From an uncultured bacterium (GTDB taxonomy: Bacteria; Myxococcota_A; Polyangia; Polyangiales; Houyiibacteriaceae), in NCBI GenBank assembly GCA_938024995.1, contig CALJDU010000013.1, positions 62,001 to 126,000 of the forward strand: 64,000 nt of DNA, in the 5' to 3' direction. Position 1 is the stretch's first letter, and each line of letters opens with the position of its first letter. The position numbers were made by a program, and so were the translations under genes. The notes beneath the pieces are model-generated. The model was not told where the DNA came from. It did not search any database and saw only the letters and a program-made list of their open reading frames with translations. Shown one piece after another: positions 35,884-58,296 of the stretch.

Positions 35884-38800
35884 TCAGACCCGGATGGTGA
35901 TCCCGAGCAGCTCGCGAAGCCGGAAGTACTCCTCCGACACACTGAAGAGGACAAGCTCCTTGAGCTTCTCTTGCACCGGGAGGTCCGCCGGGAAGTCGGG
36001 CGGGAGGGCCTGAACCATCCGCACCGCCGTCTCCAGCTCGTTGCACATCAAAAAGCCCGCGCGCATGCCCGAGAGCTCGACGGCCTGCATCCAGGCCTTG
36101 ATGTCGGTACTGCCGCCCGACTCGACGAACTTGCGGCACACGCTCCGCAGACCGTCCAGCGCCGCAGGCGCGAGGTGCGGCTGAAGCTGAGCCGCCCACT
36201 GGTCGATGCTCGGGTCAGCCGGGCCGACGCCCGCGATGCGCATCGCGGCGAGCAAGACCATCCGGAGCTCGGAGTGCGACGTCATCATCGTGCGGATGAA
36301 GTGCTCCGCCTTGTAGTACGTCAGGAAGCGCCCGATCACGTAGGTGAGATCCTGCGGTTGGTACCCGGAGAGCAAGGTGCTCCCGACGATGGCCGCGGGC
36401 GGGTTGCTGCCGACGATGTGCGTGAGGCTGCCAGCGGTCTGCTGCTGCAGGAAGAGCCGCGGCGCGATCGGGATGTTCAGCACCTGCACGACGAACCCAA
36501 AGGTCCGCGCGAAGGTCGGCGCGCTGGTGTCTGACGGGTCCGTGCTCACCGGCTTGATGCGGTGAATGTTGAGGGCCTTGTCCGACGCCTGCTTCGCGGC
36601 GTGCACCGCCGGCGCCATCAGCTCCATGATCTTGGAGACGTAGCGGTCTTCCTTCGGGTGGAAGAGGTCCTTGAACCACGCGTTACGGTCGACGCGCGAC
36701 GCGGGGCGAATGGTGCCGGCTTGCTTGTACTGCGAGTAGAACTGCTGCTGCTCCGCGTTCGCCTTCTTGAGATAAGTGAGCGTCGCGGCCAAGCACCACG
36801 CCTTGTCGTAAGCGCGCGCGTCGAAGTAGAGCTTGTAGAGCGCGTGGTACGAGTCGACGCGGTACGGGTCGCGTCGAAGCAACCACTGGTGCTCCCGAAT
36901 CGCGTCCTCCACCTTCGACGGCATGATGGAGTAGAGCTCCGCCAAGATCTGGTGCTGCTGCGGCTCGTCCGGCTTGACGTTGACCGACATCTGGAACGCC
37001 TCGGCCGCGGAGTCGAGGTTCCGCTGACGGTCGCGATAGATGATGCCGAGCGTGTGCCACAAGTTGAACTCGAGGTCCTTCTTGTCGCCGACCTTAATGA
37101 CGCGCTGAAGCATCTTTCGGTAGGCGCGCTCGAGACCCTTCCAGTCCTTTTTGGCCGTGAAGATCTTGTTGATCGCCTCGAAGGCCTTGAGCTCGTCGAT
37201 GTTGTAGTTGAGGGCCTCGTCGAACTTCGCGATCGCGGCGTCCGGGTCCTTCATCTCGTCACGAATGATGACGCCGACCGTGTAGGCGTACTTCGCCTTG
37301 AGCTTGTCGCGACCGTCGAGCGCGGCGACCTGCTCAATGATCTCGATGGCGGGCTCCCACTGCTTCGTCTCCTGGTACGCGCCCAGGAGCTTGTGAAGCA
37401 TGACGTGGTCATCCGGCTTGATGTTGCTCGCGTCCTGCCAGGCCTGCACCGCGCGCTGCGTGTTGCCGACCTTGCCCTTCCAGAGCTCACCGATCTGATC
37501 GAGCAGCTCGAAGCGCTCGTCCTCTTCATTCGCGACCTCAAGGATCTGCTTCTTGAAGTGGATGACCTGTTCCCACTGGTTCTGCGTCTCGTAGAGACCG
37601 ACCACCGCTTCCAGCGTGGGCTTATGATGAGCATCTTCCTCAAGCGCCTTGTCGAACATGTTGAGCGCCTTGCGTCGCTCGTTTTGCTCGCGCTTGATGA
37701 CGCCGAGTCGGTAGAAGATGTCGACCGTGTCGTCGCGCCCCAAGGAGTCGCGGTGGTGCACGAGGAGCATCTGGTAGAACTTGAACGCGCGGTCCCAGGT
37801 CTTGGCGCGGTAGTACGAACCCGCGAGCGCCATGAGCGACGGCAAGTGCGTGGAGTCGATCTGGTACGCGCGGTTGAGCGCCTTGATCGCGGCGTCGTCG
37901 TCACCGACCTCGGAGGCCGCGTTGCCGAGCATGAACGCCAAGCGGTGCTGCTCTTCCGGCTCGCGCTTGGTGGAGCGCTTCACGAGCATCTCGAGGAGCG
38001 GGAAGGCGTCCCCGAAGCGCTCCTGCGCCATGTACGTGTCCGCGAGCGGAAGCGCTGCGTCCTCGTTGTCCGGGTCCTGCTTGCTCGCGGCCTCGAAGAC
38101 CTGCACGGACTTGTCCGCTTCATCGAGCCGGTCGCGGTAGATGGTCCCGAGCTCCACGAGGAGCTCGGACACCTTGCGTGGGTTGTCCGTGTAGGAGGCC
38201 TCTTGCTCGATCAGGCGGGCGGCGGCGTGCCAGTCGCCGGAGTCGATCTGGATCTTCCTCATCGCCTCGAGAGACGCGAGGTGGCTCGGGTCGAGGTCGA
38301 CCGCCATCTGGTAGTTGTCGAGCGCCGAGACCCGATCACCGAGCTCCTCGTCGAGGATGCGACCGATGCGGTACTTGAGGTCGACCTGCTGCTCCGGTTC
38401 CGACACCAAGGTCGCGAGCTGCTCCATCATCTCGAGGGCCGAGACGTGGTCGCCGCGCTTGTCGTAGAGGCGGGTGAGCGAGTCGAGCGCGCCGATGTCC
38501 TGCTCGTTGATGCTGAGGACGTTGAGGTAGGCGTCGACGGCGCGATCCGGCTCATCGAGCTCCGCGGCGTAGACCCCGCCGAGCTCCTTGTAGATACGGA
38601 TCTTGTCGCCGCGATCCGGCGTCGCCATCACGTGGCGCTCATACGTGTCGATGAGCTTGTCCCACTGCTGCGTGTTCCGATAGATGCGCGCGAGCGAGTT
38701 CAGCGAACCGTCGTGGGTCGGGTCGATCTCGAGCACCTGCTCGAGACGGTCCGCGGCCTTGTCGGGCTTGATGAACTGCACCTCCCACATCTCCGCGAGG

Positions 38801-41800
38801 CGCGTGAGGATGTTGATGCGGTCGCGCTCGGTCTCGACGACCTCGTACTCGGCCTCAAGGACCTCGACCAGTGGCTGCCACCGCTCGGTCTTCGCGTAGA
38901 GCCGCTCCAAGCCGCGAAGCGCGGGCAAGTGCTGCGGGTCTTCCGCGAGGACCTTCTGGTAGGCGTTGATGGCCGCGTCCGGATCATCGATGCGCGTCTC
39001 GTAGGTTTCCGCGACCTGCATCTGCGCGTCGATCCCGGCGTCCGGGTTCTCCTCCAGCGCCTGGACCTTCCGAGACAAGATCTCGAGCTGCTTGTCCCAG
39101 TTGCCCTGCTCACCGTAGATGCGCTCAAGTGCCTCGAGCGCGGCGATGTTCTTCGGCGCGACGTCGATGGCCTTTTGGTAGTACTGCGGCGCCTGCTGCG
39201 GGATGCCGAGGTGCTGGACCGAGAGGTCGCCCATCTGCACGTAGGTCTCCGCCTTGACGTCGCGGTCATCGGTCATCTCGACCAAGCGACCGAGCACCTG
39301 CGCGAGGGTCTGCCACTGCTGGGTGGTCCGATAGAGCTCCGCCATCTGGCGCATCGCCGCGACGTTGCTCGGATCGAGCGCGAGGATCTGCTCGTAGTAC
39401 GGGATCGCGTACTCGGGGTGACCGAGGTGCTGTCCGTACCAACGCGCGCAGTGGAGACAGATCGCGATCTTGGTCTCCTTGTCTTCCGGGGGCACCTCTT
39501 GGAGCGCCTGGTTCGCGGCGGTGAGCAGCTCGTTCCACTTGTTCGTGGCGCCGGCGACCCGCTCGAGCTCGGTGGCGGTCTCCTTGTCCGAGAAGTCTTC
39601 CATCCACGCGATCTGGAGCGCTTCGAATGCGTCGACCGGCTCGCCGAGCTGGTCCTCGTAGACCTTCGCGACCTTGCCCAAGAGCCGCACGCGGGTCTCG
39701 GTGTCTTCCGCCTCTTCGACGCGGGTGACGTACATGTCGATGAGGTCTTCCCATCGCATCGCGTCGGTGTGGAGAGACTCCAGCTGCGCGAAGGCGTTCG
39801 CGTTCTGTGGGTCGATCTCGAGGATGCTCTGGAACGACTTGGTCCCCGCGTCCTTGTTGTCGACCTGGCTCTCCCAGATCTGCGCGATGGTCTCGAGCTG
39901 CTGAATGCGCTGCGCCGGATCGGGAAGCGCGGCGGCGCGTTTCTCCATGACCTCGATCGCGCTCTCCCACATTCCTTCTTCGCGGTGGATCGTCTCGAGG
40001 GCGTCCATCGCCTGGAAGTTGGCGGGGTTGTAGCGGAGCGCGTTGTTGTACGCGTCGACCGAGTCCATCGGCTGCTTCAGCTCTTCGTTGTAGAGCCAGC
40101 CGAGCTGCATGTACGTGTTCTCAAGCGTCGGGTGGTCGAGGGTCTCGCCGCCCACGTCGATGACGCGGTGCAGCGTGTCGACGAGCTCGTGATGCTGGTT
40201 TCCGTTCCGGTAGATCTCCGCGATCTGAAAGAGCGCGTTCGTGTTCATCGGGTCGATGTCGAGGACGCGCTCCCAGTTCTCGAGCGCGTTGCGATCACGA
40301 CCGAGCTTGCCGTACCAAATCGAACCGAGGTCAGAGTACACCGCGACGCGCATGTGCTCGTCGTCGACGATCGACACCTCGCGCTCAAGGACATCGACCA
40401 GGTCGGCCCAGTTCTCTTGGCTCGCGTAGATGTTGCCGAGCGCGTTGAGCGCCTCCGGGTCTTCGCCGCGAAGATCGAGGACGCGTCGCCAAAGCTCGAT
40501 CGCCTTGGCCGGATCGCCGAGCTGCTCCGACGCGAGACGCGCCATCTTCGACAGGATGTCTCCCTGCTGGAAGTCACCGCCGACGACCTCGAGCTCCTGG
40601 TTGAGCGAGGTGTAGAGCTCGGCCCAGTTCTCCTGGCGGGTGTAGATGTTTTGCAGCGCGCGGATCGAAGGCGCGTGCTCCGGATCGAGATGCCCGAGCA
40701 CCTGCTGGAAGGTCTGAATCGCCGCGTCGGTCTCGCCGAGCTCGTCTTCCAACACGACGCCAAGGCGGTGGTGCAGGTCGACCTGGTCAACGGGATCATC
40801 GGTCGCGCCGATGCGGCGGCGAAGGATGTCAGCGAGGGCGTTGTGGCTGCCGTGCTGTTCGTAGATCCGATCGAGGGCGCCGAGGGACTCTTCATCCGGC
40901 GACAAGCCAATGACATAGCGGAACGTGTGCTCCGCGCCCTGCACGTCGTCGAGCTCCTCTTCGAAGACCCGCGCGAGCTTGCGACCCACGAAGACCTTGT
41001 CTTCGACCGAAGCCCCGTTCTCGAGAACGTCCGCGTAGGTGTTGGCGAGCTGCGGCCACCCGTTGAGCAGGTTGCTCAAGCGCTCAACCTCCATCGCGGT
41101 GTGGTCGTGGCTCGGCTCCTCGAGGAGCGCGCGCTGCATCCACTCGAAGGCGCGCTCGTGCTCGTTCGCGCGCTCCTCCGCGATCTCCGCGATGCGATGC
41201 ATCATCGAGACGCGCTCGATGGGATCGGGCTGATGCTGAAGCTGAACCTCGTGAACGTTGAGGAGCTGACCCCATGACTCGTTCAAGCGGTAGAGCGGCT
41301 CAAGAACCTCGCCGATTTGGAGCGGCTTCACGCCTTGCGCGAAGAGCATCTCGAGCGCGGTGAGCGCACGCGTGTGCTCAGGCGCCGCGGCCAGGATCTC
41401 GCGGTACTGATCAATCGCGCCGTCGACGTTGCCGAGGTGCTCTTGATAGACCTGACCCGCGCGGAACTGCAGGTCGAGGATGTCATCCGGGCTCGCGGCG
41501 ACGCGGATCTCGTGCTGAAGAACCTCGGCCAGGTCTTCCCAGCGACCGGCCGACTCGTAGAGACGGTCGAGGGACTCAATGGCTTGAACATGACCCGGGT
41601 CGGCCTGGGTAACGAGCTGGTAGCGACGAATCGCGCCGTCCACGTCGCCCACGTGAACCTCGGAGATCATCGCGGCGCGGAGCGCCAAGTCGACGACGTC
41701 GTCCGGTGACTCCTCGGACATACGCTGAATCTCAACATCGTAGAGCTGCGTCACGCGCGGCCAGGAGTTGGTCTGCTCCGCGAGACGCTCGAGCGACTCA

Positions 41801-44800
41801 AGCGTGTGGCTGTGGCGGTTGTCGAGCGGCAGTGAGCGCGCGTACGCGTCGAACGCCTGCGGTCCTTGCTCCAGCTGGAACTCGTAGAGCTCGGCGACCT
41901 GGTGCAAGATCTCGGTCTGACGGATCGGGTCGGCCTCATGCGCAACCTGAACCTCAAGAACGGAGATGAGCTTGCCCCACTCTCCAGACTGTCGGTAGAC
42001 CGGCTCGAGCACGCCAGCTGACGCGACCGGCTCGACCCCTCCCGAGACCATCGTCTCGAGCGCGTCGAGCGTCGGCTGATGCTCCGGGACGACGTCCAGG
42101 ATGTCGCGGAAGATGTCGACCGCGCGCTCCGGATCGTCGTGGCTCCGGTGGAGCTCCGCGATGCGGTAGCGGTAGCTGATGACCTCGTTCGGATCGCTGG
42201 CCAGATCCGCCTGGCGCTCAAGAACGCTGAGGAGCTCGTCGGCGTTGGTCGTGCCCTGGTAGAGGACGTCAAGACGACCGAGCGCGGTCAGGTCCGTCGG
42301 GTCGATCTCGAGGATCCGCTGATACGTGTCGATCGCCTTCGCGTTGTCCTTGAGCTCCTGCTCGTAGACCGCGCCCACCTCGAGGAAGATGCGCTTCTTC
42401 TCGTCGGGGTCGACACAGATGTCGGCCTTCCGCTCGTAGGTCGAGAGCAGCGACTCCCAATCACCGGCGCGCAGGTGCAGCTCGATCAGTTTGCTCAGCG
42501 CGGGGTCGTCTTCTTCGTCGATCTCGAGGATCTGGTGGTAGACGCCGACCGCGTCCGCGGGACGCTCGAGGACCTCTTCGTAGATCGTTGCCGCGCGGAA
42601 CAGGTGCTGCTTCTGTTCGTCGGGGTCGTGAAGCATCGCCGACTTCTTGATGCAGATGCTGGCGAGGTCGTCGTAGCGCTCGTCGAGCTGGTAGAGGCGC
42701 TCCAGCGCGCTCGCCGCTTCGAGGTTTTCTGCGTCCATCGTGAGGACGTGCCCGTAGTGCTCGATGGCTCCGGCGTGGTCGCCGATCGACTCGCGGATCG
42801 CCGCCGCCTTCACGTGAAGGTTCGCTGCGAGGTGCGGATCCTCGACGGTCGCGGCTTGCTGCTCGTAGACCTCGGCGAGCGACTCGGCGCCGCCAATCGC
42901 GCGCTTCAAACGCTCGAGCTGCTCCTGCGTGGACTCGCTGCCCGGGTCCTCGGCGAGCGCGCGCGCGTACGTCTGGAACGCGGAGCCCGGATCGTCGAGG
43001 GCCACCTCGTGAAGGTCCGCGATTCGGTGAAAGAGCTCGACCTTGCGATCGACGGAGTCCGCCGCGGCCGCCTGGACCTCGTGGACACCGATGAGCTTTT
43101 TGATCTCGCCGTTGCCTTGATAGATCGGCTCGAGCACCTCGGCGATGGCGAGCTGATATGCGGGGTTCTGCGACAGACGCTCAAGCGCGTCGAGGCCTTC
43201 TTTGTTCTCCGGATCCTCAGCGAGGACCTCTCGGTAGATCTCGATCGCGGACTCGGTCGCGTCCATCTTGCTCTCGCGAAGCGACGCGAGACGAAGCATG
43301 AGCGCGATCCGTTCGTCCGGATCGGCAGAGAGCTCGAGCTGCCGATCCACGTTGTCCGCGAGGTCGCTCCAACGCTCCTGGCGCATCAGGAGGTCGTCGA
43401 GCCCACGGAGCGCGCGAACGCTTGTTGGGTCGAGCTCCAGGATCTCGCGATGAATCGTGATCGCGTCGTCGGGCGACTCCAAGTACTCGTCGGTGATCAG
43501 CGCCATCTGAGAGAGGAGCTCTTCTTGCTCGACCGGATCGACGCTCTGCTCGGCGCGGCGACGCAAGACGCCCACCAGGTCAGACCAGCGCTCGGTGCGC
43601 CGGAAGAGCATCTCGAGGCTGCTGAGCACCTCGACGTCGCCCGCGTCCTGATCGAGGACCTTGCGGTAGGCACCGACCGCACCGTCGACGTCGTCGAGCT
43701 GCGTGTCGGAGATCATCGCGGACTTCATCCACAGCCCGCGCGCGAGGTCGGGGTTATCCGCCGCTGCGCCGAGCTCACCGAGGAGCGTGACGAGCTGCGG
43801 GAACTTCTCTTGCTCGCTGGCGATCAACTCGAGGCGCGCGAGGGTGTCCTCGCTATCCGGCATCGAGCGAAGCGCTTCGGCGTAAGCGTTGAAGGCGGCA
43901 TCAGGATCGTCGCTCTGCTCGCCGTGGACGCGACCGATTTTGGTGAGCAAGCGGAGGCGCTGCTCATCGTCCGCCGCGTTGTCGTGAAGGACGCGAAGCG
44001 CGCGAACGAGCTTCTCCCACTCGCCGCGACCCTCGTAAATCGGCTCGAGGATCTCGGCCGCCGAGCTCCCAACGGTCGGGTTCGCGAGCAAGCCTTCGAG
44101 CGCTTCACGCGCTCCATCGTGCTCGGGAAGAATCGTGAGGACCTCACGGTAGAGCTCGATCGACTCGACCGGATCGGCGAGGTGCTGCTCCTTGGCGCGT
44201 CCCAAGCGAAACTTGTGCGCGGCCATCTCTTCGGGAGAGTCGGAGAGCTCGATCCGGCGCTCGAGAACGCCGGCGAAATCTTCCCAACGCGACTCAGACT
44301 CGTAGAGCGCGTCGAGCGCGCGGAAAGCGTCGCCCTCCCCGTGACCGTACTCGCCGAGGATCTCTTGGTAGGCGGTGATCGCCTTGTTCGCGTCCTTGAT
44401 GTCGTTCTGAAAGAGCGCGGCGCGCTGGTACGCGATGACCCGACGCGAATCGGGATCGGTGTCGAGCTCGAGCCGGCGATCGTAGATCACCATGAGCTCG
44501 TCATAGCGCTCGGTCCGGCGGTAAAGCTCGCCGAGCGCCGCGATGGCCGCGGGGTTGTCGTCTTGGATCTCGTAGACCTCTTGGAACTGCGCGATCGCCT
44601 CGTCGACGCGTCCCACGCGCGCGAGGACCTTGCCGAATGAGATCTGCAGATCGATCGAGTCTTCGATGTCATCGGTCGCCTCGATGGCGGCGGAGTGCGC
44701 ATCGACGACCTGGCTCCAACCCTCGACCTGCTCGGCGAGCCGATCGACGTCTTCTCGGATGACCTCAGTCGTTGGCATGAGCTTGAAGGCATCGAGGTAC

Positions 44801-45909: not shown

Positions 45910-46048
45910 ACCGTCAATCTCTTCCTGTCCGTCCACACAGACGAACGCGGACCCGTACGCTTTCGCGTCGAGTCCGCCACCTCACACTACCGATTGCCGA
46001 GCCAAGTGGCCCAACGTGTCTTTTGATTTGCTTCGTTGAAGCAGCAGC

Positions 46049-46918
46049 TCACGGGCCTCCGAGCTCGCCGAGACGATCCTGAGCCGCCTTGATGTAGTGC
46101 GGGGGCGCCTCGCCGCCCGCGACATCGATGAACTTCTTGAGGTAACGCCGCGCCTCTTCTCGGTTGTCCTGACGCGCGTACGTCCAGCCGAGAGAGAAGA
46201 GCGCGTCACGCATGCCCGGAACGATCTCGAGCGCGGAGCGGAACTCCGCGATGGCCTGGGCGTCGTTGCCTTGACCCTCGTAGACCGTGCCCAGGAGATG
46301 GTGAAGGCTCGCGACCTCTTCAGTGCCGGGGATGGCGACCTGAAGTCCGCTCTGCAAGACCTGCGACGCCTGGTCGAGGTAGCCAAGGTCGGCGTAGAGA
46401 CGACCGAGTGACGAGTACGCCTCCAAGAAACGCGGGCCGTGCTGACACGCCTCGGTGTAACGCTGGAGCGCCTCTTGCGGCTGGTCCAGCTTCTCGTGCA
46501 CCTGCGCGAGCTTGTAGTAGGCCTTGAAGAGATCAGGGTCACGCGAGATGGAACCCTCGAACGCTTCCTTCGCCGCGGGCCAGTCCTCGAGCTCGATCAA
46601 AACGGTGCCGAGCTTCTCGTGATAGCCGGCGATGTCGCCGTTGGCCGAGATGGCGCGGTTGAGATCTTCCTTCGCGCGCTCGAAGGAGCGCAGCTCCATG
46701 TGAACCAACGCCAAGTTGTAGAACGCTTGGTCGTTCGTTCCGTCGATCGCACCAGCACGGTCGAGCGCCTTCTCGGCTTCGACGAAACGCTTTTGCTGCG
46801 CGAGGAGCACGCCCTCATTCATTTGGTTCAACGATTCGACGCGTGCGCGCGAACAATCTCCACCCGTTACCGAGAGGAACATCGCGAGGCCGACGAGCGT
46901 CGTTAACAGTCGCTTCAT
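46049..46918 (-). CDS. TPR protein with signal anchor
   Basis: Starting at ATG 46916-46918, preceded by GGAG four bases away, gives 289 residues; 25 upstream residues of the longer frame are unlikely. MKRLLTTLVGLAMFLSVTGGDC is a signal peptide. The residue before Cys22 is Asp, so it is not a normal lipobox; anchoring or release is uncertain. From 30 to 285 run about seven TPR units (AFYNLALVHMELRSFERAKEDLNRAI, AYYKLAQVHEKLDQPQEALQRY and others). The protein should sit in the periplasm. It lies 112 bases upstream of the giant TPR gene and probably shares its transcript. In the region where I recall gltH (a beta-barrel) in M. xanthus, this locus has a TPR protein instead. Confidence 0.8.
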   Translation of the reverse strand: MKRLLTTLVGLAMFLSVTGGDCSRARVESLNQMNEGVLLAQQKRFVEAEKALDRAGAIDGTNDQAFYNLALVHMELRSFERAKEDLNRAISANGDIAGYHEKLGTVLIELEDWPAAKEAFEGSISRDPDLFKAYYKLAQVHEKLDQPQEALQRYTEACQHGPRFLEAYSSLGRLYADLGYLDQASQVLQSGLQVAIPGTEEVASLHHLLGTVYEGQGNDAQAIAEFRSALEIVPGMRDALFSLGWTYARQDNREEARRYLKKFIDVAGGEAPPHYIKAAQDRLGELGGP

Positions 46919-46960
46919 GGGTTCTCCAAGGGGGCGAAGAAGGGATGCCCCGCGGGCCGG

Positions 46961-46990
46961 ATAGTAATGGACAAGCCATCGATTTCTCAA
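46961..46990 (-). promoter_or_regulatory. Sigma70-type promoter for the TPR and GltI-like genes
   Basis: On the minus strand, TTGAGA (46985-46990; 5 of 6 bases of the -35 consensus) and TACTAT (46961-46966; 4 of 6 of the -10) are 18 bases apart. The start site would be near 46954, leaving a leader of about 35 bases before the ATG at 46918. Confidence 0.5.
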
Positions 46991-47248
46991 CACGTTCTCG
47001 CGATCGAGACCGGTTCGTAGGAGATTCGCCCGCTGGGCCGAAAAGCGTTGCCTGGAGGCATCGGTCCTCAGGTCGCGCTCCTCGCCGGTGATCGACAGCT
47101 CGTGACCTCGCTCAAGCGGAGCGGTGGGACGAAGCCGTCATCAACCTGGGATGCGATCGAGCCGCGATCGATCCCCAAGGTCATCACGAAAAGGTGTCGA
47201 CGAATGACGGGCGAGCATGACCATCTTTCGCCGCGGATGGGTTAAACG

Positions 47249-47280
47249 AAAAAGAGCCGGCGCGAACGCCAGCCCTTTTT
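47249..47280 (-). terminator. UUCG-loop terminator after the GltG-like gene
   Basis: In the minus-strand RNA a 14-pair stem (two G-U pairs) with a UUCG tetraloop at 47263-47266 ends in five U; the A-run on the other arm makes it work in both directions. It lies 28 bases beyond the stop of the GltG-like gene, separating it from the TPR-GltI unit. Confidence 0.8.
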
Positions 47281-47307
47281 CTGATTGAGTCTGATTCAGC
47301 CAGCTCG

Positions 47308-49287
47308 CTAGCCGCCGGCTGCGGTCAGCATGAACGGGTAGTTGACGATAACGATGCCGCCGCCGTCCGGAGACGGGAACGTCCATCGACGCACGGCACC
47401 CGCGATGCACCGCTCGACGCGCTGGTTTCGTAGCGTCGAACTCGCGACCATGGAGGTCTGAACCGAGCCCGTTGGCGAGATGATGAAGCGCACCGTCACA
47501 CGACCCTCAAGGTCGGGACGTGAGTTTAGCTCCTGCTCATAGCAGAACCGGACCTCGTTGATGTGACGCCGGATGACGCGGCGGATGACCTCCTTGGAGA
47601 GCGACCCGCGAACATCGGCGCGGCCCGAACGGATTCGGGGAACACGCGCTGAGCGACCTCGAAAGCCACCGGCACCACGACCGTAGCCGTTTCCGTTACC
47701 GCCGCCTCCACCGTGACCGATGGTGCCGAGGTTGCCGAGACCAATGGTGCCCTCGCCTGTGCCTCCGCCACCACGACCGGTGCCGCGGAGACCGAGACCG
47801 CCGAAGCCGAAGTTCTCTCCGATTTGGTCACCCATCAACGCGCCGAGCGCGCTCATCGGATCGCTACCGAGAGCCGTTGCCTGACCGAATGGTGACGTCG
47901 GTGAGTTGAACGAGCCCGTCATCGACTGAAGGGTTCCAAGAATACCTGCGGTCCGTGCTTGGTCGCGGGCCTCTTCACGAGCCATGTGCTGGTCTTGGTT
48001 GTCCTCGGGACCCTGAATCGCGTAGCGATTGTTGGTCTTCTTGGACTCCTTCTTACCCATCTGGCCTTCTTCGCCCTTGTGGCGCTTGCCCTTGCCCCCC
48101 TCGGTGTCCTGGGACTCGTCGTCCTGGAGCCACTCCGGAGTCTCTTCTTCCTCAGTCGCCGGAGGCTCCATGAGGTACTTCACGAGACGTGAGTCTTGGT
48201 TGAGGAGATCGAGCGAGAGCGACGCAGGACGCGGCGGCAAGAAGTAGAACGTCAGCAGCAAGATGCTGTGAAGCAGAAGCGAGCCGCCGATGTAGACGAA
48301 GGGCTTCCAGTCCATGGAGAAGCCGCCGCCGACCTTCTTGCCGGCGTTGACCGGCTTCACGATGAACGTAAAGCCGCGGTACTGGACCTTGGCCGACGCG
48401 CCGTGCGGAAGCGGGTATTGCTGGGCACCTGACATCGCGGACGACGCCTGAAGCTGAAGCCCCTCAAGCTGGGTCGAGTGACCATCTTGTGTGGTGACGA
48501 CGCCCGTCGCTCCGTTTGGAACGGTGACCGCGACACCACCACCGGTGTCCACACAGACCGGGTAGCGATCGGTTCCGATGACGTCGGAGCCCATCAGGTA
48601 GTCAACGTCGTTGCCCTTCCCGCCACCTTCGCCGCAGAAGAAGCTACGCGGGGGAGACATGTGCTCGACGTGCAGGACCGACTTATCGCCCCACATGATC
48701 GTCACCTCGACCGCGGAGTCGGTGCTCTCGACCTCGTGCGCGGAGACCGGAGGACCGTTGGCGGCGAAGCTGTAAGCGACCGACTCGGGATCGATGTCCG
48801 CGCCGTGACCGTGTCCACCATGGTGCGCCACCGGAGCGGGCGCAGGCGCAGCGAACGGGTTCGGCATTGCGGCGGGCGCGGCGAACGGGTTCGGCGCAGC
48901 AACGGCAGCCGCGACGGGAGCCGCCACCGGTGAGCGCTGGTCGGCGATCATGGTGGGGTCTTCGTCGCTCACGCCGGCGCTCCCGATCTCGACCACCACG
49001 CGGGTGTCACCGAGAAGGATCTCGTCGCCGTTCTGAAGGCGACACTTGTTCACCTTCTTCCCGTTGACGATGGTGCCCGACGCAGAGCCGAGATCGATGA
49101 TGTCGATCTCGTCCGCATCCGTCACCTCAATGACGGCGTGCATCCGCGAGACCTTGTCATCATCGATGCGCAAGTGGCTGGACCCCAGCTTGCCGACCTT
49201 GATGATGTCCTGGGTCAGCTGCTCAGTGCGGACGAGCTCGTCGCCTGAGTAGACCTTGAACGTTATCGGAATGTTTACGTTGCTCAC
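47308..49287 (-). CDS. gltG: GltG-like protein: FHA, membrane helix, TonB-like C-terminus
   Basis: A 659-residue protein starting at GTG with GGAGG five bases upstream. An FHA domain covers 28-102 (VGKLGSSHLRIDDDKVSRMHAVIE, Asn75 in GTIVNGKKV). An Ala/Pro/His linker and a beta-rich region (190-305) lead to one membrane helix at about 330-350. The periplasmic part has a charged stretch, a Gly-rich stretch (490-555), and an AgmX/PglI-type TonB-like domain (565-655): VIRRVIRRHINEVRFCYEQEL, GRVTVRFIISPTGSVQ and CIAGAVRRWTFP. This matches GltG of M. xanthus, an inner-membrane component of the motility machine that links cytoplasm and periplasm. It follows the CglF-like gene by 36 bases. AgmX/GltJ itself has a zinc-ribbon/GYF start, which is missing here. 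Confidence 0.85.
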   Translation of the reverse strand: MSNVNIPITFKVYSGDELVRTEQLTQDIIKVGKLGSSHLRIDDDKVSRMHAVIEVTDADEIDIIDLGSASGTIVNGKKVNKCRLQNGDEILLGDTRVVVEIGSAGVSDEDPTMIADQRSPVAAPVAAAVAAPNPFAAPAAMPNPFAAPAPAPVAHHGGHGHGADIDPESVAYSFAANGPPVSAHEVESTDSAVEVTIMWGDKSVLHVEHMSPPRSFFCGEGGGKGNDVDYLMGSDVIGTDRYPVCVDTGGGVAVTVPNGATGVVTTQDGHSTQLEGLQLQASSAMSGAQQYPLPHGASAKVQYRGFTFIVKPVNAGKKVGGGFSMDWKPFVYIGGSLLLHSILLLTFYFLPPRPASLSLDLLNQDSRLVKYLMEPPATEEEETPEWLQDDESQDTEGGKGKRHKGEEGQMGKKESKKTNNRYAIQGPEDNQDQHMAREEARDQARTAGILGTLQSMTGSFNSPTSPFGQATALGSDPMSALGALMGDQIGENFGFGGLGLRGTGRGGGGTGEGTIGLGNLGTIGHGGGGGNGNGYGRGAGGFRGRSARVPRIRSGRADVRGSLSKEVIRRVIRRHINEVRFCYEQELNSRPDLEGRVTVRFIISPTGSVQTSMVASSTLRNQRVERCIAGAVRRWTFPSPDGGGIVIVNYPFMLTAAGG

Positions 49288-49323
49288 ATTGCCTCCGCGC
49301 TCGCGCGCAGTCTCACTCGAGAC

Positions 49324-49572
49324 CTAGAGATCCTCGACCGACTTCAGCATCTCAGGAATGAAGTGCTCCCGGATACGAATCAAAGACGTCCGCGCACCAC
49401 GGCGACGAACATTCAAGAGCTCACCATCGGGGCGGACGAGGTCACCCGAGACGAGATCATCTTCGAAGTCATAGGTCGTTGCGTCGTCATCTTGCGCCAT
49501 GACCTCTCCGCCCACGAAGAGCGTGGAGAGAGCGATGGCAAACGCGATTCCGTATTTCTTAAACAGCATCAT
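49324..49572 (-). CDS. cglF: Small secreted protein, CglF/GltF-like
   Basis: An 82-residue protein. Residues 1-27 are a signal peptide (MMLFKKYGIAFAIALSTL..., cleavage after VMA or nearby). The mature 55 residues include LVSGDLVRPDGELLNVRRRGART and a closing helix IREHFIPEMLKSVEDL. Location between the GltE-like and GltG-like genes, size and this motif pattern fit the adventurous-gliding protein CglF (GltF). I base this on memory of the family and context, so it should be treated as probable. The start has no good ribosome binding site of its own; a strong one serves an upstream 10-codon frame that overlaps it. Co-transcription with gltG is likely (36-base gap). Confidence 0.65.
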   Translation of the reverse strand: MMLFKKYGIAFAIALSTLFVGGEVMAQDDDATTYDFEDDLVSGDLVRPDGELLNVRRRGARTSLIRIREHFIPEMLKSVEDL

Positions 49573-49591
49573 GATTCTTGAACCGATTCAT
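49559..49591 (-). CDS. Upstream mini-ORF overlapping the cglF start
   Basis: ATG at 49591 is preceded by a perfect GGAGGT (49599-49604, seven bases away). It encodes ten residues (MNRFKNHDAV) and its TAA lies inside cglF codons 4-5. The cglF ATG at 49572 has only weak purines before it, so ribosomes may reach it by termination and re-initiation. The peptide itself may have no role. Confidence 0.5.
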   Translation of the reverse strand: MNRFKNHDAV

Positions 49592-50060
49592 GCGGATGAC
49601 CTCCGCTCGGGTTTCGCGACCTCCCGCCACGGGAGAACGCACCGAATACACATGTCTTTTCGGCGAGCGGAGATTACCTCCCCTCCTTATCGAATTCAAT
49701 CACTGACTCGAACCCGATGGACGCGGAGAAACCCCCGTGCCCACAACGTATGCACCGTCACCTTTGCGGTTTTCTGACTTCTAAGGCTCCGACACCCGAG
49801 GTCTGGGGAAGTTCCCACGGGAAAAGAAAGTAGGTGCCTGGGTTAGGCGAGCCGGGCGGGTACCGGACGATCCCGCTCGGAGCGCTCACGTGCGAGGAGC
49901 ACGTCATCTAACGCCAGCGATCTCCCCACACGTCAGGATCCGCGAATCGCGTTCACAACGGTCCGCCGCCAGCATGAGCATCGGGTGGTCTTTCCGATAC
50001 AAGACGGAAATGAAAAACGGCGACCATCGGTCGCCGTTTTTCTGTGAGCTCAGTAGCCAA
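49573..50060. other. Gene-free region between the CglF-like and GltE-like genes
   Basis: 488 bases. It holds the mini-ORF just before cglF, a promoter region for the cglF-gltG unit that I could not pin down, and the bidirectional hairpin at 50013-50041. It is less GC-rich than the genes around it. Confidence 0.6.
50013..50041 (-). terminator. Bidirectional intrinsic terminator after the GltE-like gene
   Basis: A perfect 13-bp inverted repeat (50013-50025 and 50029-50041) with a three-base loop, flanked by A-runs and U-runs on both strands. It is 19 bases beyond the stop of the GltE-like gene and ends the first glt transcript. Confidence 0.85.
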
Positions 50061-51485
50061 TCACTCCGGCGCGGGCGCCGGCTGCTCTTGTTGTTGTTGC
50101 TGCTGTTGCTGCGCTTCCTGGCGCTCCATCTCGGCCTGCATGCGCTCGGCTTCCGCCTGCATCGCTTCACCCTCGCGAACCGCGGCGATGGTCTGCTCAA
50201 TGAGCTGAATCCGACCGGGGCGGCACGTGTTGCTGCGACGACGACGACGCTGACGCTCGGTCAGCTCGCGGCACCGCGCGGACACGGCTTCGCGTGCTTC
50301 CGCGTAGCGAGGCTCCGCGGACGCGCGCTGCATGAACTGCTCGTAGAAACCCTTCGCCCGCTCGAGCTCCGGAATCGAACCACTCATGTAGTCGTGGAAG
50401 AGAAGACCAAGGTTGAAGTACGCCTCCGGACGCTGACCGTTCAACTGGACCGCGCGCTCGTACTGCGCTTGCGCCTGATCGAACTGCTCAAGGCCTCGAT
50501 GCGCCGCGCCGAGCCCGACGATAGCCTCGTAGCTGTCTGCGCGAAGCGCCGACGCACGAGTGAATGCGCGCTGCGCATCGGCGTAGCCGCGGAACGAGAG
50601 CGTGATCTGCCCAAAGTTCATCTGCGCCTCGAACATCGAGTCGTCGAGCGTGATCGCCTTCTCGAAGTACTTGAGCGCTTCGATAACGTCGCCCTTGCGG
50701 ATCTTGATGAGGCCCCAGGTGTTGTAGATGGGCGCGTACTCACGGTCGATGAGCTGCGCCTGTCGGCACACGACCTCGGCGAGGTCGAACGACGCCGCGT
50801 TACCGCGCACTCCGCGACCATAGTAGAGGAGCGCCATCTGGTTGAACGCCGGCAGGTAGCTGGAGTCGATGGCGAGCGCACGACGCAAGTTGCTGAGCGC
50901 TTCCGCTTCCTGCGCACCGCCCGCGCGACGCTGAAGAATCGCGAGGTTGGTGTAGCCAGTGGTGCACTGGGGATCGTCACGAATCGACCGTGTGAACTCG
51001 GAGCGCGCCTGCTGCGCGTTGCCCGACTCCATCGCCATCATTCCGAGCGCGACGCGTGCTTCGCAAAGCTTGTCGTTCGCTTGAAGCGCCTGGTTGTAGT
51101 AGCGGCGCGCCTTGTCTTGATCTTCACATCGCTCGGCGGTCAGACCGGCCATGTAGTGCGCCTCGGCGAACGAACGCTGCGCGTCGATCGCTTCATCGAA
51201 CTTCTCGATGACCTCTTCGCAGCGCGCCGGGTTCCAGCCCTGCTCTTCGTACGAGTTGAAGGAGGTGAGCCCGTCTTCCCAGTGGTTGTGCGCGGCCGCG
51301 GAAACGGCGGCGCCCGAACCGGTGACGATGGCTTCGCCGCCGGCACCGGTCGCGACTTCGCCGCCACCTTCACCGCCGCCGCCACCGCTGCTCGAGCTGC
51401 TGCCACCACAACCGATCGCGGAGAGCGAGGTCAGGCTGACCACGAGGGACAGGCAAAGGAGTTCAAACGTGTTGATGCGGATCAC
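50061..51485 (-). CDS. gltE: TPR lipoprotein, GltE/AglT-like
   Basis: A 474-residue predicted lipoprotein starting at GTG, which overlaps the GltD-like stop (GTGA). The signal ends in the lipobox AIGC with Cys26. After a Ser/Gly-rich linker (27-60), residues 65-405 carry about nine TPR units (AHYMAGLTAERCEDQDKARRYYNQAL, AYFNLGLLFHDYMSG and others). The C-terminus is coiled and ends in a tract of eight Gln (DNA 50088-50111) before PAPAPE. GltE (AglT) of M. xanthus is an outer-membrane TPR lipoprotein of the gliding machine encoded directly after gltD, as here. The cluster order raises confidence in the assignment beyond the TPR similarity. Confidence 0.82.
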   Translation of the reverse strand: MIRINTFELLCLSLVVSLTSLSAIGCGGSSSSSGGGGGEGGGEVATGAGGEAIVTGSGAAVSAAAHNHWEDGLTSFNSYEEQGWNPARCEEVIEKFDEAIDAQRSFAEAHYMAGLTAERCEDQDKARRYYNQALQANDKLCEARVALGMMAMESGNAQQARSEFTRSIRDDPQCTTGYTNLAILQRRAGGAQEAEALSNLRRALAIDSSYLPAFNQMALLYYGRGVRGNAASFDLAEVVCRQAQLIDREYAPIYNTWGLIKIRKGDVIEALKYFEKAITLDDSMFEAQMNFGQITLSFRGYADAQRAFTRASALRADSYEAIVGLGAAHRGLEQFDQAQAQYERAVQLNGQRPEAYFNLGLLFHDYMSGSIPELERAKGFYEQFMQRASAEPRYAEAREAVSARCRELTERQRRRRRSNTCRPGRIQLIEQTIAAVREGEAMQAEAERMQAEMERQEAQQQQQQQQEQPAPAPE

Positions 51486-54400
51486 TGCGCACCTCCCTCT
51501 TCTTCTTCATCGCCTTCAGTGGTGAGCTCCACTGCGCCGGGTCGACCCCAGGTGCCGCGAACGAACGTCGCGGAACCGCGGAGCTCAGCTGCCAGCGGGT
51601 ACTGACGCGGGTTGAGTCGGTTGAGCTCAGACTCGCAGGTGCGCGACCACTCGTTGAACCAACGAACGTTCGTCGCGGTCGTCAGGCAGAACTCGAACTT
51701 GTCGATGGCCTGGCGCTGAAGCGGCTCGGACTGCTCGTCGAGCGCGCCGACGTAGATGTCGAAGAGCTCCGGGTCGTTTTCGATCTCTTCCGGCACCGGC
51801 GCGTCGCGGAAGTCATCCACGAACTGACGGTACATCTGACCCACGCGGGCCGCCGAAGCGATCATCCACGCCGGCGACTGCAGCGGCGGAACGCCTTCGC
51901 GCACCGTCACCGAGAGCTCGGCGATCTTGTTGTACTCGGCCTCCGCAGCGCGGAGCGCGGTCATCTTCTCACCGATCCACTCGCGGAACTCGTTCTGCGC
52001 CCAGCGGTTGACCCGGTCCATGCTTCGGCCGCCGCGGTAGCGCGGGAAGCGCACCTGGCGGAACTCCGCGAACTTGTACTCAGCCAAGTAGAAGAGCGCC
52101 TCTGCGGTCGAGTCGAGACCCTCCTTGATGTAGAGGATCTTCTCGACCTCGCTGGTGTCGCTGAGACCGTTGATGGCGTTCGGCGTGCGCGCCCAGGCTG
52201 ACACGGCGGTGCGGAACGGTCGCTTCGCGTCGTCCTTGCGATCCGTCTCCCAGTAGCCTCGTCCCATCAGGACGTTCGCCCGGATGATCTGATGCGGAAG
52301 CGCGGTGCGGCGGAAGTCGCGGAGGTAGCGGCGGTAGTGAAGAATCACGCGCTGCCAGTTTTCCTCGCGCTCGTAGATGGTTCCAATCGAGTAGACGACC
52401 TGAGACGTCTGCCGCGGGAGCTTGCGCTTGTAGTTCCGCGTGAACAGCTCTGCGTCTGACTCTGCCTCAGCGGTATTGCCGAGACCGATTCGGAAAAACA
52501 CCGCGTTTTGAAGCGCGTCATGCGCGATGGCGCATGTGCCCGCGGTCCGCTCGGCTTCAGAGCAGCTCTCGCCGTCCTCGCCCGGATAGTCTCTCGCGAA
52601 CTGCTCGTAGTACGTCGCGGCCTGTTCGTAGAACGCGAGCGCGTGATAGTTCGCGCCCACGAGGTACACCGCTCGCTTTGCCCACTCGCTGTCGCTGAAG
52701 CGCTCGATGAGCACCTTACGAACCTGAATCGCGCGACCGAGAAGTCGGGCCGCCTCGAAGTTAATCGCGGCGTTGTAGAGGACCTCGTCCAAGCGCCCAC
52801 ACTCACGGTAGCGCCGGAAGATCCGAACGTAGGTCGCCGCGGCTTCCTTGTGCTGATCCGTGTTCTCGTAGGCCTCGGCCTTCTTTCGAAGGACGTCGCA
52901 ACGAAGCTGAGAAAGCACGCCGCACAAGTCGGGGTGCGCGTCCTGTGCTTGCTGTGTTGCGCAGTAGTTGCTCGAGAGCGGCTCAATCGCGTCCTCGATG
53001 TCGTCGAGACACTCCGGACGGTTGGGCTCGCGCCTTGTGCCGATGGTGTTGAGTGAGTCGAGGTAAAGGTTGGCCGCGAACTCGGCCATCTCGCTGTCGC
53101 GGTGGTTCCACGCGATGTCCTTGAAGATCAGCGCCGCTTCCTCGTAGTGATGCGCTTCGTAGTAGATGCGCGCGCGGCGGTACTTGATCTGTGGGATGTC
53201 GTCGCTGTCCGGGACGTAGCAAACAAAGCGCGTGAACGCGTTGAGCATGCCGGTCTCCAGCTCCGTCAGGTCCCGTCGGCCGTACTGCTCTTCCGGCGTC
53301 GGCTCCGGCTCTGCGCGACCGCGTCGACCACGTCGGCGACCTTGGCGCTCTTCATCGCGGGCGACCTCTCGCTCACGACCTGCGTACTGCTGTTGGTACA
53401 GGTTGTTGTAGCAAAGCACCGCCGCGTAGGCCGCGTCGTTGGTGAACTCGCCTTGTGGGTTGATCTCGACGACCTTGTCGAACGCCGGACCACACTGTGC
53501 CCAGTCCTCCATCTTCCAGAGGAGCTCGGCGTAGTAGTAGGCGACCTTGTACTGCGTCGGCCAGTCCTCCCGCGCGATGTCGGGGAACTCGAGGTCTTCC
53601 ATGTCAGGGAACTTCGCGATGAGAATGCGGTACAGACGCGCCGCGAGATCCATCGTGCTCTGATCGTTGGTGCCCGGCTGGGACTCCGTACCAATGGCCT
53701 CTCGGTGCCACGCGGTCGCGAGCCACACCAAGACCTGGGCGGAAGCCGCCTTGCACTCGTTCGCCGCTTCCGCCGGACGGTTCTGACCGATGAAGGTCTC
53801 GTAAACGTCGATCATGCGGCGCAGCTCGACGAGCTGTTCACGCTTGGGCGATGACGAGATGACGGCGTTCGTGACACGGCTCTGCCAGTAGCAAAGCTTG
53901 TCCGAGCTCGGCTGTTCCGACATCAGCTTGTGGTAGACGGTGATCGTGTTTTCCCACTGACCGGTGTCGAAGTAGAGCTCTCCGAGGTTCTCGAGCATGC
54001 CGAGCGCCTGGTCGTTGTCTTGCGCAAAGCGTCTGAAGAAGTCCAAGGCGCGTGCAGGTGTTCCGACCTGCGAGTACGGCAGCACCAGCTCCTTACGTGA
54101 CTGACGCGCGAGGTTACCCGCGTCCGTGGCGTCGGGATGCGCGACCGCGAACTCGATCGTCGCGACAAACGACTCCAGCGCTCCGCGATAATCTTCGACG
54201 TTGTAGTGGGCCCACGCGGACTTGTAGAGCGCGTAACCGTAGACCGGGTTTCTCTCTGGCGGGAACTCCACGACCTTGTCGTAGAACTGGAGCGACGCCG
54301 ACATATCGCCCTCGGCGAAGTAGAACTCCGCGAACGAGAGGTAGGCGTGCGGGATGAAGCGCGACTGCGGGAAGCCCTTGATCAGTCGGCGGTACACCTG

Positions 54401-55159
54401 GCGCGCGCGGTCATGCTGACGGAGCTCTTCGAGCCCGAACGCGAGCGAGAAGAGAACCTCGTCCATGCGGTCGAAGTCCGGGTGATCTTGAACGAGCGTC
54501 GCGTACGTCCGGATGGACTCCTGACGCGCGTTGTTCAGGCCCTCTTGCGCCTGACGCTGCGCCTGACGCGCCTGCTGACAGCGGCTGCGGTTCTTCTGCT
54601 GCTCGCACGCCTCAAAGATCGGCTCGTCCTGACCGCGGACCTCCGCGTTGAGCGACTGCTGAAGCTCGAAGTAGGTCTCGGCGAGACGAAGGAGAACCTC
54701 GGGACGACGCGGGTTGTTGCGTCGCGTGTTTCCGACGAGACGGTTGAGGAGCTGCACCTCGCGCTCAAGGAGCGTACGGGCACGGGCCTGACGACGCTCA
54801 CGACCACGCGCGGTTGACGCATCAATCTGAACGGAGGGGCCGGTCGGTCCCTGCTTGGTCTCCTGCTTGACGGGAGCCGCGGTGCGTAGCCGTGAGGTCG
54901 GTCGCGTGGACTGACCTTGCTGTGCAGCCGCGCGCTTGGTCGCTGCGGGCGAGGAACCAGGACAACGGTTGACGTTGTCCTGGGCCGACTGCGGAATGCA
55001 CGCGCCGCCCGAGGACGCGTTGGAACTCGCGGCGGTCGTGGTCTCTTGCGCGGACGCAGAGCCAACCACCAACATCGCAGCGAGTAGCGAAACGGAGAGA
55101 ACCGCCCCGCCACAAAGGGCGACGCGGGTTCCGTCGATCATGTTTTTGCTCAAACGCAT
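51482..55159 (-). CDS. gltD: Periplasmic TPR protein, GltD/AgmU-like
   Basis: The ATG at 55157-55159 has GGAAGG eight bases upstream and gives 1225 residues; a GTG six codons earlier would overlap the upstream gene. The signal peptide ends near residue 38 (GSASA). A Gln-rich and Arg-rich region (40-115) is followed by TPR-type helical repeats over most of the length, for example LLRLAETYFELQQSLNAE, FSLAFGLEELRQHDRARQVYRRLIKG and VRIFRRYRECGRLDEVLYNAAINFEAA. A highly charged insert with QGRRRGRRGRAEPEP lies at about 625-640. AgmU/GltD of M. xanthus, as I recall, has about the same length, is a periplasmic TPR protein and precedes gltE. It should join inner-membrane and outer-membrane parts of the machine. 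Confidence 0.82.
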   Translation of the reverse strand: MRLSKNMIDGTRVALCGGAVLSVSLLAAMLVVGSASAQETTTAASSNASSGGACIPQSAQDNVNRCPGSSPAATKRAAAQQGQSTRPTSRLRTAAPVKQETKQGPTGPSVQIDASTARGRERRQARARTLLEREVQLLNRLVGNTRRNNPRRPEVLLRLAETYFELQQSLNAEVRGQDEPIFEACEQQKNRSRCQQARQAQRQAQEGLNNARQESIRTYATLVQDHPDFDRMDEVLFSLAFGLEELRQHDRARQVYRRLIKGFPQSRFIPHAYLSFAEFYFAEGDMSASLQFYDKVVEFPPERNPVYGYALYKSAWAHYNVEDYRGALESFVATIEFAVAHPDATDAGNLARQSRKELVLPYSQVGTPARALDFFRRFAQDNDQALGMLENLGELYFDTGQWENTITVYHKLMSEQPSSDKLCYWQSRVTNAVISSSPKREQLVELRRMIDVYETFIGQNRPAEAANECKAASAQVLVWLATAWHREAIGTESQPGTNDQSTMDLAARLYRILIAKFPDMEDLEFPDIAREDWPTQYKVAYYYAELLWKMEDWAQCGPAFDKVVEINPQGEFTNDAAYAAVLCYNNLYQQQYAGREREVARDEERQGRRRGRRGRAEPEPTPEEQYGRRDLTELETGMLNAFTRFVCYVPDSDDIPQIKYRRARIYYEAHHYEEAALIFKDIAWNHRDSEMAEFAANLYLDSLNTIGTRREPNRPECLDDIEDAIEPLSSNYCATQQAQDAHPDLCGVLSQLRCDVLRKKAEAYENTDQHKEAAATYVRIFRRYRECGRLDEVLYNAAINFEAARLLGRAIQVRKVLIERFSDSEWAKRAVYLVGANYHALAFYEQAATYYEQFARDYPGEDGESCSEAERTAGTCAIAHDALQNAVFFRIGLGNTAEAESDAELFTRNYKRKLPRQTSQVVYSIGTIYEREENWQRVILHYRRYLRDFRRTALPHQIIRANVLMGRGYWETDRKDDAKRPFRTAVSAWARTPNAINGLSDTSEVEKILYIKEGLDSTAEALFYLAEYKFAEFRQVRFPRYRGGRSMDRVNRWAQNEFREWIGEKMTALRAAEAEYNKIAELSVTVREGVPPLQSPAWMIASAARVGQMYRQFVDDFRDAPVPEEIENDPELFDIYVGALDEQSEPLQRQAIDKFEFCLTTATNVRWFNEWSRTCESELNRLNPRQYPLAAELRGSATFVRGTWGRPGAVELTTEGDEEEEGGAQ

Positions 55160-55164
55160 GGGAA

Positions 55165-56829
55165 CTACCTTCCGCACTGGTTGGTGACCTGCTGGCGGTA
55201 GAAGCCAAGCTCATCACGCCAGTACTCACCTTGGAACGGCCAAAGCTGATGCTCTTCGTCGACCTCGACGTCACCACGACCGGCGCGCTGGGCGTCGGTC
55301 ATCTGGCGCTGCGTGTCCGCGTCGAGCTGTCCGCGGGTGTAGGTCACGATCTCGAGCTCGATGGTGTCGACCTGGTTGGACAGGTCCTGGAGCTCTTCGA
55401 TGAGTCGGTTGTAACGACCGCGCGCGAGGTCACCCGCCTGGTCAATGGCGAAGGACTTCGCGACCGCGACGTCCTGCAGGATGCGCGCGCCAATCGACGA
55501 GTTACGGAACTCGGCGGGGGCCTGCGCGAGACGGGTCTCTTCGGCTTCGAGGACACTCACGTACTCAAGGTGACGAAGGAGCGTGCGGTCGGAGAGCGCG
55601 ACGCTGACGATGCCCTTGATGTTCTCGGAGAGGTTGGCCTCACCCGAGCGAACGCGCTTGAGGAACTCGAAGAACTGCGTGTTGTCCTCGAACTGACCCA
55701 GGGTGGTCTCCAGCTCGTCGCGGACGGGGTCGTACTTCTCGTGGAAGAGACCGATCATCGCCTGCGAGTTCTCGATCTGGCAGTTGACGAAGAAGGTCAC
55801 CGCCTTGAGCACCAGCGCTTCCGGGTAGTAGGCGTTGTCGAAGTACGGCGAGTAGATCGTGTGGATGTTACCGAGGGCGCGGGAGTACTCGTCGGCGAGG
55901 AAGAACGCCCAGCTCGACTCGAAGAGCGCGGGGAGCCAGTACTCGCTGCTGACATCGACCTGGTTCCACGCTTCGACGGCCTGACCGAGAAGACGACCGT
56001 CGATGGTGCGCTCCCCGTTCTCGTCCGTGCGGTTGGACGCGGTGTAGTAGACGCGGGCGAGCGAGAGCCAGCCAAGGTTCTTCATGCGGGTCTCGTCTTC
56101 GATGTCGACGTTTCCGGCATCGATGGCGTCGATGATGCTTCGGAACGCGCCAATCGCGGGACGCGCACGACGCATCCGGACGTAGGAGATGCCCGTGAAG
56201 AACCGACCCTCGACGTAGTACTCGGAGGACTCCGAGACGCGCGCGAAGAGGTCGATCGCCTGCTGGAACTCGCGCTGCTGGTACTTGAAGCGCCCCATCA
56301 CGTAGAGAAGCTGGTTGTAGAGATCAGCGCTCTCGGTGGTGTTGAACTGCTCGAGCTGATCCACGCCGTAGCGTCCGACCTTCTCGATGATGCCCGCGGG
56401 CTCCGGGAGCTGCGAGGCGAGCTGCGCTAGCCACTGAAGCGTCTGGTTGAAGTAAATGTGGCCCTGCCCCTGCTGGCCGATCTCATCAAAGATCGCGAGC
56501 GCGGACTGGTAGAAGCGGAGGTGGTAGAGGCACTTCCCGAGGAAGAACTGCGCCTTCTGCACGTTCGCCGGCGCGTCCTGGGTCTCGCCCTCGACGACAC
56601 GCTGGAACTGCACACCCGCTTCTTGGTAGCGCTCCTGCTGGTAGAGCCGCAGCGCGTTCGCCAACGCCTCAGAGGGAGGACCCTCTGCCGGAGGTGCCGG
56701 GGGCTGACCCGTCTCATCGACGTTGAAGGTCATGTCCTGAGCAGATGCTGCCGTCGGGGACAACCACGACGACACAACGGACGTCGAAATCATCGCCGCC
56801 GCCATCAAGATCACACTGCTTCGCCTCAT
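55165..56829 (-). CDS. Periplasmic TPR protein (possibly GltC-like)
   Basis: A 554-residue protein. Signal peptide 1-30 (MRRSSVILMAAAMISTSVV... AASA); ribosome binding site GGGAG about nine bases before the ATG. The region 55-400 has tetratricopeptide-like repeats (ALRLYQQERYQEAGVQFQRVV, YNQLLYVMGRFKYQQREFQQAIDLFARV), and a coiled-coil part (450-510) precedes a Trp/Tyr-rich end EEHQLWPFQGEYWRDELGFY. It is first in the operon with gltD (5-base gap). Another periplasmic TPR protein of the Glt machine, GltC, is encoded elsewhere in M. xanthus; this may be its counterpart, but I cannot prove that from sequence alone. Confidence 0.75.
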   Translation of the reverse strand: MRRSSVILMAAAMISTSVVSSWLSPTAASAQDMTFNVDETGQPPAPPAEGPPSEALANALRLYQQERYQEAGVQFQRVVEGETQDAPANVQKAQFFLGKCLYHLRFYQSALAIFDEIGQQGQGHIYFNQTLQWLAQLASQLPEPAGIIEKVGRYGVDQLEQFNTTESADLYNQLLYVMGRFKYQQREFQQAIDLFARVSESSEYYVEGRFFTGISYVRMRRARPAIGAFRSIIDAIDAGNVDIEDETRMKNLGWLSLARVYYTASNRTDENGERTIDGRLLGQAVEAWNQVDVSSEYWLPALFESSWAFFLADEYSRALGNIHTIYSPYFDNAYYPEALVLKAVTFFVNCQIENSQAMIGLFHEKYDPVRDELETTLGQFEDNTQFFEFLKRVRSGEANLSENIKGIVSVALSDRTLLRHLEYVSVLEAEETRLAQAPAEFRNSSIGARILQDVAVAKSFAIDQAGDLARGRYNRLIEELQDLSNQVDTIELEIVTYTRGQLDADTQRQMTDAQRAGRGDVEVDEEHQLWPFQGEYWRDELGFYRQQVTNQCGR

Positions 56830-57921: not shown

Positions 57922-58296
57922 ATGTCTGAAAAACAACAACGTCGCTCTCCCCGCCAAGCGGCAGGTCACGTGGCCGAGATGATGATCGCGGAACGTCTTC
58001 GTGACGAGGGCTACGCGATCGTGGGGACGAACGTCATGGTCGGGAAGTACGAGCTGGATGTCGTCGCGCGTCGTGGTCGTGAGGTGGTCGTCGTGGAGGT
58101 TCGTTCACGCAGAGACGATCGCTTCGGTCCGCCAGCGGCCTCCATCGACGAAGGTAAAGCGCGTCGCGTACGGATCGCAGCGTGGCGACTTCTTCGTACG
58201 ACCCCAGCGCTTCGCCGTTGCCGATTGCGCATCGACGTCGCGGCCGTGACGTTCCACCCGACCACCCACGTCGAGTACTACCGCGACGTTCTTTAG
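57922..58296 (+). CDS. yraN: YraN family protein (UPF0102)
   Basis: A 124-residue protein with a predicted nuclease fold of the YraN family (PF02021). Key pattern: AAGHVAEMMIAERLRDEGYAI, then KYELDVVARRGREVVVVEVRSRRDDRFG, the E-x-D...E-V-x-x-R core of the restriction-endonuclease-like site; Arg stands where most members have Lys. The C-terminal half has IDEGKARRVRIAAWRLL and RLRIDVAAV. Family members are widespread and poorly understood, and are thought to act on DNA. It starts 56 bases after the lipoprotein terminator and converges with the HAMP protein. Confidence 0.88.
   Translation: MSEKQQRRSPRQAAGHVAEMMIAERLRDEGYAIVGTNVMVGKYELDVVARRGREVVVVEVRSRRDDRFGPPAASIDEGKARRVRIAAWRLLRTTPALRRCRLRIDVAAVTFHPTTHVEYYRDVL

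Follow-up and report, generated by a model that had tools for sequence, protein, structure and literature searches.

We found that the window, a stretch of 64,000 nucleotides (positions 62001–126000 of contig C13 in a 6.79-Mb genome of 119 contigs), probably carries the main structural locus of the Agl/Glt gliding machine of a Polyangia-type myxobacterium, as judged from its sequence. A preliminary description of this DNA had placed seven colinear minus-strand genes at 35884–56829, and all seven open reading frames were confirmed there. They are transcribed in the order gltC, gltD, gltE, gltF/cglF, gltG, X and gltI, where X denotes an unnamed gene. These genes and the neighbouring features discussed below are as follows.

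55165–56829, minus strand: gltC, soluble periplasmic TPR protein, 554 aa (NCBIfam NF033756)
51482–55159, minus strand: gltD, large exported TPR protein, 1225 aa (assigned from place, length, signal peptide and TPRs)
50061–51485, minus strand: gltE, TPR lipoprotein with lipobox SAIGC, 474 aa (NCBIfam NF033758)
49324–49572, minus strand: gltF/cglF, small exported protein, 82 aa (NCBIfam NF033764)
47308–49287, minus strand: gltG, FHA domain, one transmembrane helix and AgmX/PglI (TonB-like) C-terminus, 659 aa (NF033760)
46049–46918, minus strand: X, unnamed TPR lipoprotein between gltG and gltI, probably 289 aa (generic TPR matches)
35884–45936, minus strand: gltI, giant cytoplasmic TPR protein, 3341–3350 aa (TPR array, homologues)
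57381–57803, plus strand: cysteine-rich lipoprotein with lipobox SVGC, divergent from gltC, 140 aa
63354–64000, plus strand: GltA/GltB-type outer-membrane barrel, 363 aa, gene cut by the window end (TIGR04565)
21519–22190, minus strand: MglA paralogue, ∼14 kb from gltI, 223 aa (PDB MglA 6hjh)

The translated reading frames were searched with NCBIfam models curated from M. xanthus gliding proteins, and four genes were matched in order. GltC scored 276 bits over residues 55–552 (500 residues; cut-off 450), GltE 122 bits (cut-off 225), CglF 68 bits (E of 6e-19; cut-off 90) and GltG 459 bits over its full length (cut-off 650). All four scores were under the equivalog cut-offs, as expected for a distant class, suggesting that these proteins are distant relatives of those of M. 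xanthus. The earlier reading of a Glt-type cluster was thus supported by GltE, CglF and GltG in order, but its first gene, taken there for a generic periplasmic TPR protein, was found to be gltC. Pfam matches showed the FHA domain of GltG at residues 30–93 and TPRs in GltC, GltD, GltE, X and GltI, and the C-terminal tail of GltG was matched by NF033768 at residues 563–654. When the window copies were compared with their paralogues, the window copy was clearly preferred for GltC (276 vs 83 bits), CglF (68 bits vs no match) and GltG (459 vs 148–160 bits), whereas GltE was nearly tied (122 vs 116 bits). GltC orthologues were 73% identical in genome G239 (10,327,335 bases) and 48–49% identical in Sorangium and Minicystis. 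The NCBIfam search of the translated gltD frame gave no match to any model of that name. The gene was assigned from its position between gltC and gltE, its length (1225 aa vs 1191 in M. xanthus), its signal peptide and its TPRs, and homologues at 22–67% identity occupied the same position throughout the loci compared. Orthology to the M. xanthus proteins rests on HMMs, PDB chains and synteny.

GltI showed no signal peptide and carried TPRs along most of its length. End-to-end alignments were obtained with the giant TPR proteins encoded after X in other genomes, at 42–43% identity within the order and 26–33% in other classes, with 967–2618 bits over the whole range. Its C-terminal domain of ∼300 residues matched no Pfam family except for weak TPR matches in some members, and was present in 78/78 genomes searched of the class. 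A profile search of this domain retrieved TPR chains, which matched mainly its first 55 residues, and an AlphaFold model from one sequence had a pLDDT of 41. The domain is conserved but uncharacterised. It was also observed in a 1,773-residue protein on contig C20 (locus L247, 7500–12821), which was 29% identical to GltI residues 1971–3348; a similar shorter paralogue (∼1,770 residues) occurs class-wide.

The sixth gene had been described as another TPR protein. The TPR matches, all of them generic in both Pfam and NCBIfam, agreed with this, but the start is probably at 46918, giving 289 aa, and a cysteine follows the signal peptide, so that the product should be regarded as a lipoprotein. X also has a conserved N-terminal stretch ending in MNxGV and was ∼27% identical in Minicystis. 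In M. xanthus, the interval between gltG and gltI holds gltH and MXAN_4864/65 (agmV), the latter found in gliding screens and set aside as not real genes (PMC3169522). The product of this agmV region, between gltH and gltI, may in M. xanthus have been, or may still be, X.

The second conserved neighbour is the cysteine-rich lipoprotein transcribed divergently from gltC. It was found beside gltC in 29 named loci, with 41 loci showing gltC and at least 1.5 kb upstream of it. Of the 10 invariant columns in its alignment, 9 were Cys. The structure model was confident, and the search with it gave no PDB fold match. In M. xanthus, cglC (gltK), whose product helps the barrels into the outer membrane, is divergent from gltBAC (PMC4488436); the cysteine-rich lipoprotein takes this place here and may, by analogy, be the counterpart of CglC. 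X and this lipoprotein are both conserved but uncharacterised, and their novelty is modest. It may be that both belong to the core of the gliding machine without having been recognised as such, and that the ancestor of the phylum already had them; to this tentative reading we give somewhat less than an even chance. Locus L010 (7606–13299) holds a series of small cysteine-containing lipoproteins that resemble one another and begin alike; they look like tandem duplicates. The gene yraN (57970–58296 in the window and its flanks) adjoins the lipoprotein and gltC in several Myxococcota classes, with rnhB or rplS nearby in some, which suggests that the yraN-lipoprotein-gltC neighbourhood is old.

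To assess conservation, 80 named loci were fetched with the GltG profile, many of which end at contig or locus ends. The order C-D-E-F-G was kept in 52 of the 80 and G-X-I in 51, the latter also in other classes. All seven genes were in order in 36, and many of the rest were incomplete at contig or locus ends. Because these 36 were among separately fetched loci, chance was excluded as the origin of the order. The seven-gene order was also kept in other classes of the phylum, and in one genome of another class (G079) a VWA protein, gltB, C, D, E, F, G, X, I and J stood in one run. GltC was found in 76/96 genomes of the phylum searched, and GltG relatives in 78/78 genomes searched of the class. 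From gltC to the end of gltI, the distance was 21–23 kb in Sorangium, Minicystis and G239, the same as here. In one lineage C-D-E-F-G was kept, X and I were absent after gltG, and GltI lay at another site; loss of GltI from this lineage was considered and rejected, since the protein was found elsewhere in those genomes.

It had been noted earlier that GltA/B, AglRQS, GltJ and CglB were missing from the window, and that they might lie elsewhere. Most of these parts were indeed located elsewhere in the genome, where an AglRQS-type triplet, GltJ-like proteins, GltA/B-type barrels and mglBA were all found, so this alternative was right; one barrel gene, however, starts inside the window at 63354. 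The two barrels matched OMP_myx_plus (TIGR04565) with 67.5 and 65.5 bits (cut-off 60; 363 aa and 289 aa) and were the only ones in the genome, the second lying outside the window. The pair is 6.5 kb beyond gltC, and its neighbourhood was kept in a member of the same family (G022) for at least the first barrel.

For the motor, an ExbB-ExbD-ExbD triplet on contig C2 (L008, 7634–9324) had the order and sizes of AglR-Q-S. These candidates gave no match to an AglR/Q/S-specific model and were assigned from their order, their size and their conservation among related myxobacteria. The AglR identity was 72–93% overall: 93% in a family member, 86% in G239, and 73% in both Minicystis rosea and Sorangium cellulosum. 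In each of these four, another AglR-like gene, read from the opposite strand, adjoined AglR. Here it belongs to a second ExbB-ExbD-ExbD triplet (L008, 9980–13535), divergent from the first, with two extra ExbD genes that are apparent duplicates (67% and 56% identical); the paired divergent triplets were seen in full here and in G239. Other ExbB/TolQ-type genes, on C45 (49 kb), C42 and C57, were rejected as the gliding motor, being only distantly similar to the AglR candidate and situated in ExbB- or Tol-type gene sets.

GltJ was sought by its layout of zinc ribbon, GYF domain, one helix and TonB-like end. Two proteins (L034 and L035) had the zinc ribbon and GYF and scored 94 and 67 with the GltJ model, whose cut-off is 450; when 284 genomes of the phylum were searched with this curated model, its cut-off was reached in none and 1e-30 was passed in only six. 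One of the two matched the solved M. xanthus AgmX domains 7zok (6e-8) and 7z3c (6e-5). The other lay ∼7 kb from a MIDAS/VWA lipoprotein (L035, 489–2186), in a neighbourhood kept in G239. This lipoprotein contains the DxSxS motif and matched the MIDAS adhesin model with 23 bits and the CglB model weakly with 16 bits; it is a candidate adhesin of the CglB kind. Three MglA-type GTPases were found in the genome. The canonical mglB-mglA pair is on C95, MglB being assigned by sequence reading and position. The MglA paralogue of the window, which matched PDB MglA 6hjh and others (214 bits), was rejected as canonical MglA in view of that pair, and is only a candidate as a machine member. No mglB neighbours it, and it adjoins a metallo-beta-lactamase-fold protein.

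Since the gene set fits a gliding machine and includes parts that the Nfs machine lacks, gliding is the best reading of the locus. The alternative that survives best, though we consider it unlikely, is a Glt-related surface transport engine without gliding, for example an Nfs-like machine moving a surface polymer. In M. xanthus, the spore-coat genes nfsA-H are the closest homologues of glt (Luciano et al., PMC3169522), and for this reason the cluster may be co-orthologous to both. Moreover, contig C45 (L197, 8012–19695, and L198, 772–2683; ∼141–156 kb) bears a second, divergent Glt-like cluster, encoding C-like, D-like and E-like proteins, a small exported protein and a G-like protein, with a Wza/EpsE-type polysaccharide export gene behind it, so that machines of the Glt kind may have more than one task in this organism. 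But the export gene follows the C45 cluster and not the window cluster, and the C45 proteins score far lower for GltC and GltG; it is the C45 cluster that is possibly an Nfs-like machine and the stronger candidate for that function. GltI, GltJ and GltK are absent from the Nfs set (PMC3169522), whereas GltI and GltF are encoded in the window cluster, and GltJ-like proteins, mglBA and the VWA lipoprotein are found in the genome. GltI and GltJ thus argue for a gliding role over an Nfs role. The presence of GltI, GltF, GltJ, MglA and MglB likewise makes less likely the ancestral, non-motile variant that had been offered earlier as the other explanation of the missing parts.

A more specific form, an ancestral core complex (GltC, D, E and G with AglRQS) as in gammaproteobacteria, before its recruitment to motility, is highly improbable. 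All core genes are here and the HMM scores fall short of the equivalog cut-offs set for the M. xanthus proteins, as such a complex would allow, but the Group A parts tied to motility by Luciano et al. (GltF, GltI, GltJ and two GltA/B-type barrels) are present, by which this explanation is largely refuted. That unrelated TPR and FHA proteins are adjacent by chance can be dismissed, for although TPRs are widespread and neither GltD nor X gave a specific family model match, the specific matches stand in order, and the same order recurs in dozens of genomes of several classes.

For the preferred reading of a gliding machine, assembly, motor coupling and motility may be transferred from M. xanthus to the genes, domains, order and conservation that were observed directly. 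The AglRQS motor, seated in the inner membrane, powered by protons and encoded on another contig, would act through GltG and GltJ. In the cytoplasm, the giant GltI would connect the motor end of the machine to the MreB track, with MglA/MglB in control. Periplasmic GltC, D, E and F, and probably X, would carry the force to the GltA/B barrels and the VWA surface adhesin, and the attached sites would then move along the cell, pushing it forward. In M. xanthus, the Agl motor is coupled to the MreB track through GltI and GltG, and the adhesin CglB is held by the Glt complex (PMC13104615), and GltB, GltA and GltC form an outer-membrane/periplasmic subcomplex (PMC4488436).

Across Polyangia and other Myxococcota classes, the genes of the gliding machine known from one model organism are kept together in an almost unbroken block. 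This adds to and partly revises the picture of 2011, which was drawn from few genomes and had gltC apart from gltD-I. As the machine itself is known, it is the two unnamed conserved neighbour proteins in the block and the one unannotated domain of GltI that stand out.

In M. xanthus, the Agl/Glt genes are in three clusters: G1 (gltD-J), G2 (cglC/gltK-gltB-gltA-gltC) and M1 (aglRQS). Shared with that organism are GltC, D, E, F, G and I, the G1 order D-E-F-G-x-I, the GltA/B-type barrel pair, a lipoprotein divergent from the gltC transcript, and, in the genome, an AglRQS triplet, GltJ-like proteins and MglA/B. The preliminary description had equated the order with the M. xanthus series gltD-gltE-gltF-gltG...gltI. 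This series is kept, but gltC heads the genes here whereas it lies apart in G2 in M. xanthus, and the order is therefore not simply that of G1. With the barrels just beyond gltC, the G1 and G2 sets, unlinked in M. xanthus, are neighbours here. If X and the cysteine-rich lipoprotein are indeed core parts, the joined G1 and G2 order would be the older state, from which the split order of M. xanthus arose. X occupies the place of gltH, gltJ is elsewhere in the genome, and neither GltH nor AglZ was among the parts identified. The Nfs spore-coat machine, also driven by AglRQS, shares homologous A, B, C, D, E and G (PMC3858216, PMC3169522), and differs from the present set in the parts named above. 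Sorangium cellulosum and Minicystis rosea both carry a Glt locus with the spacing of gltC and gltI seen here, and Minicystis shows the full order C-D-E-F-G-X-I; their sequences have diverged, with identities of 40–49% in GltC and the GltI C-terminus.
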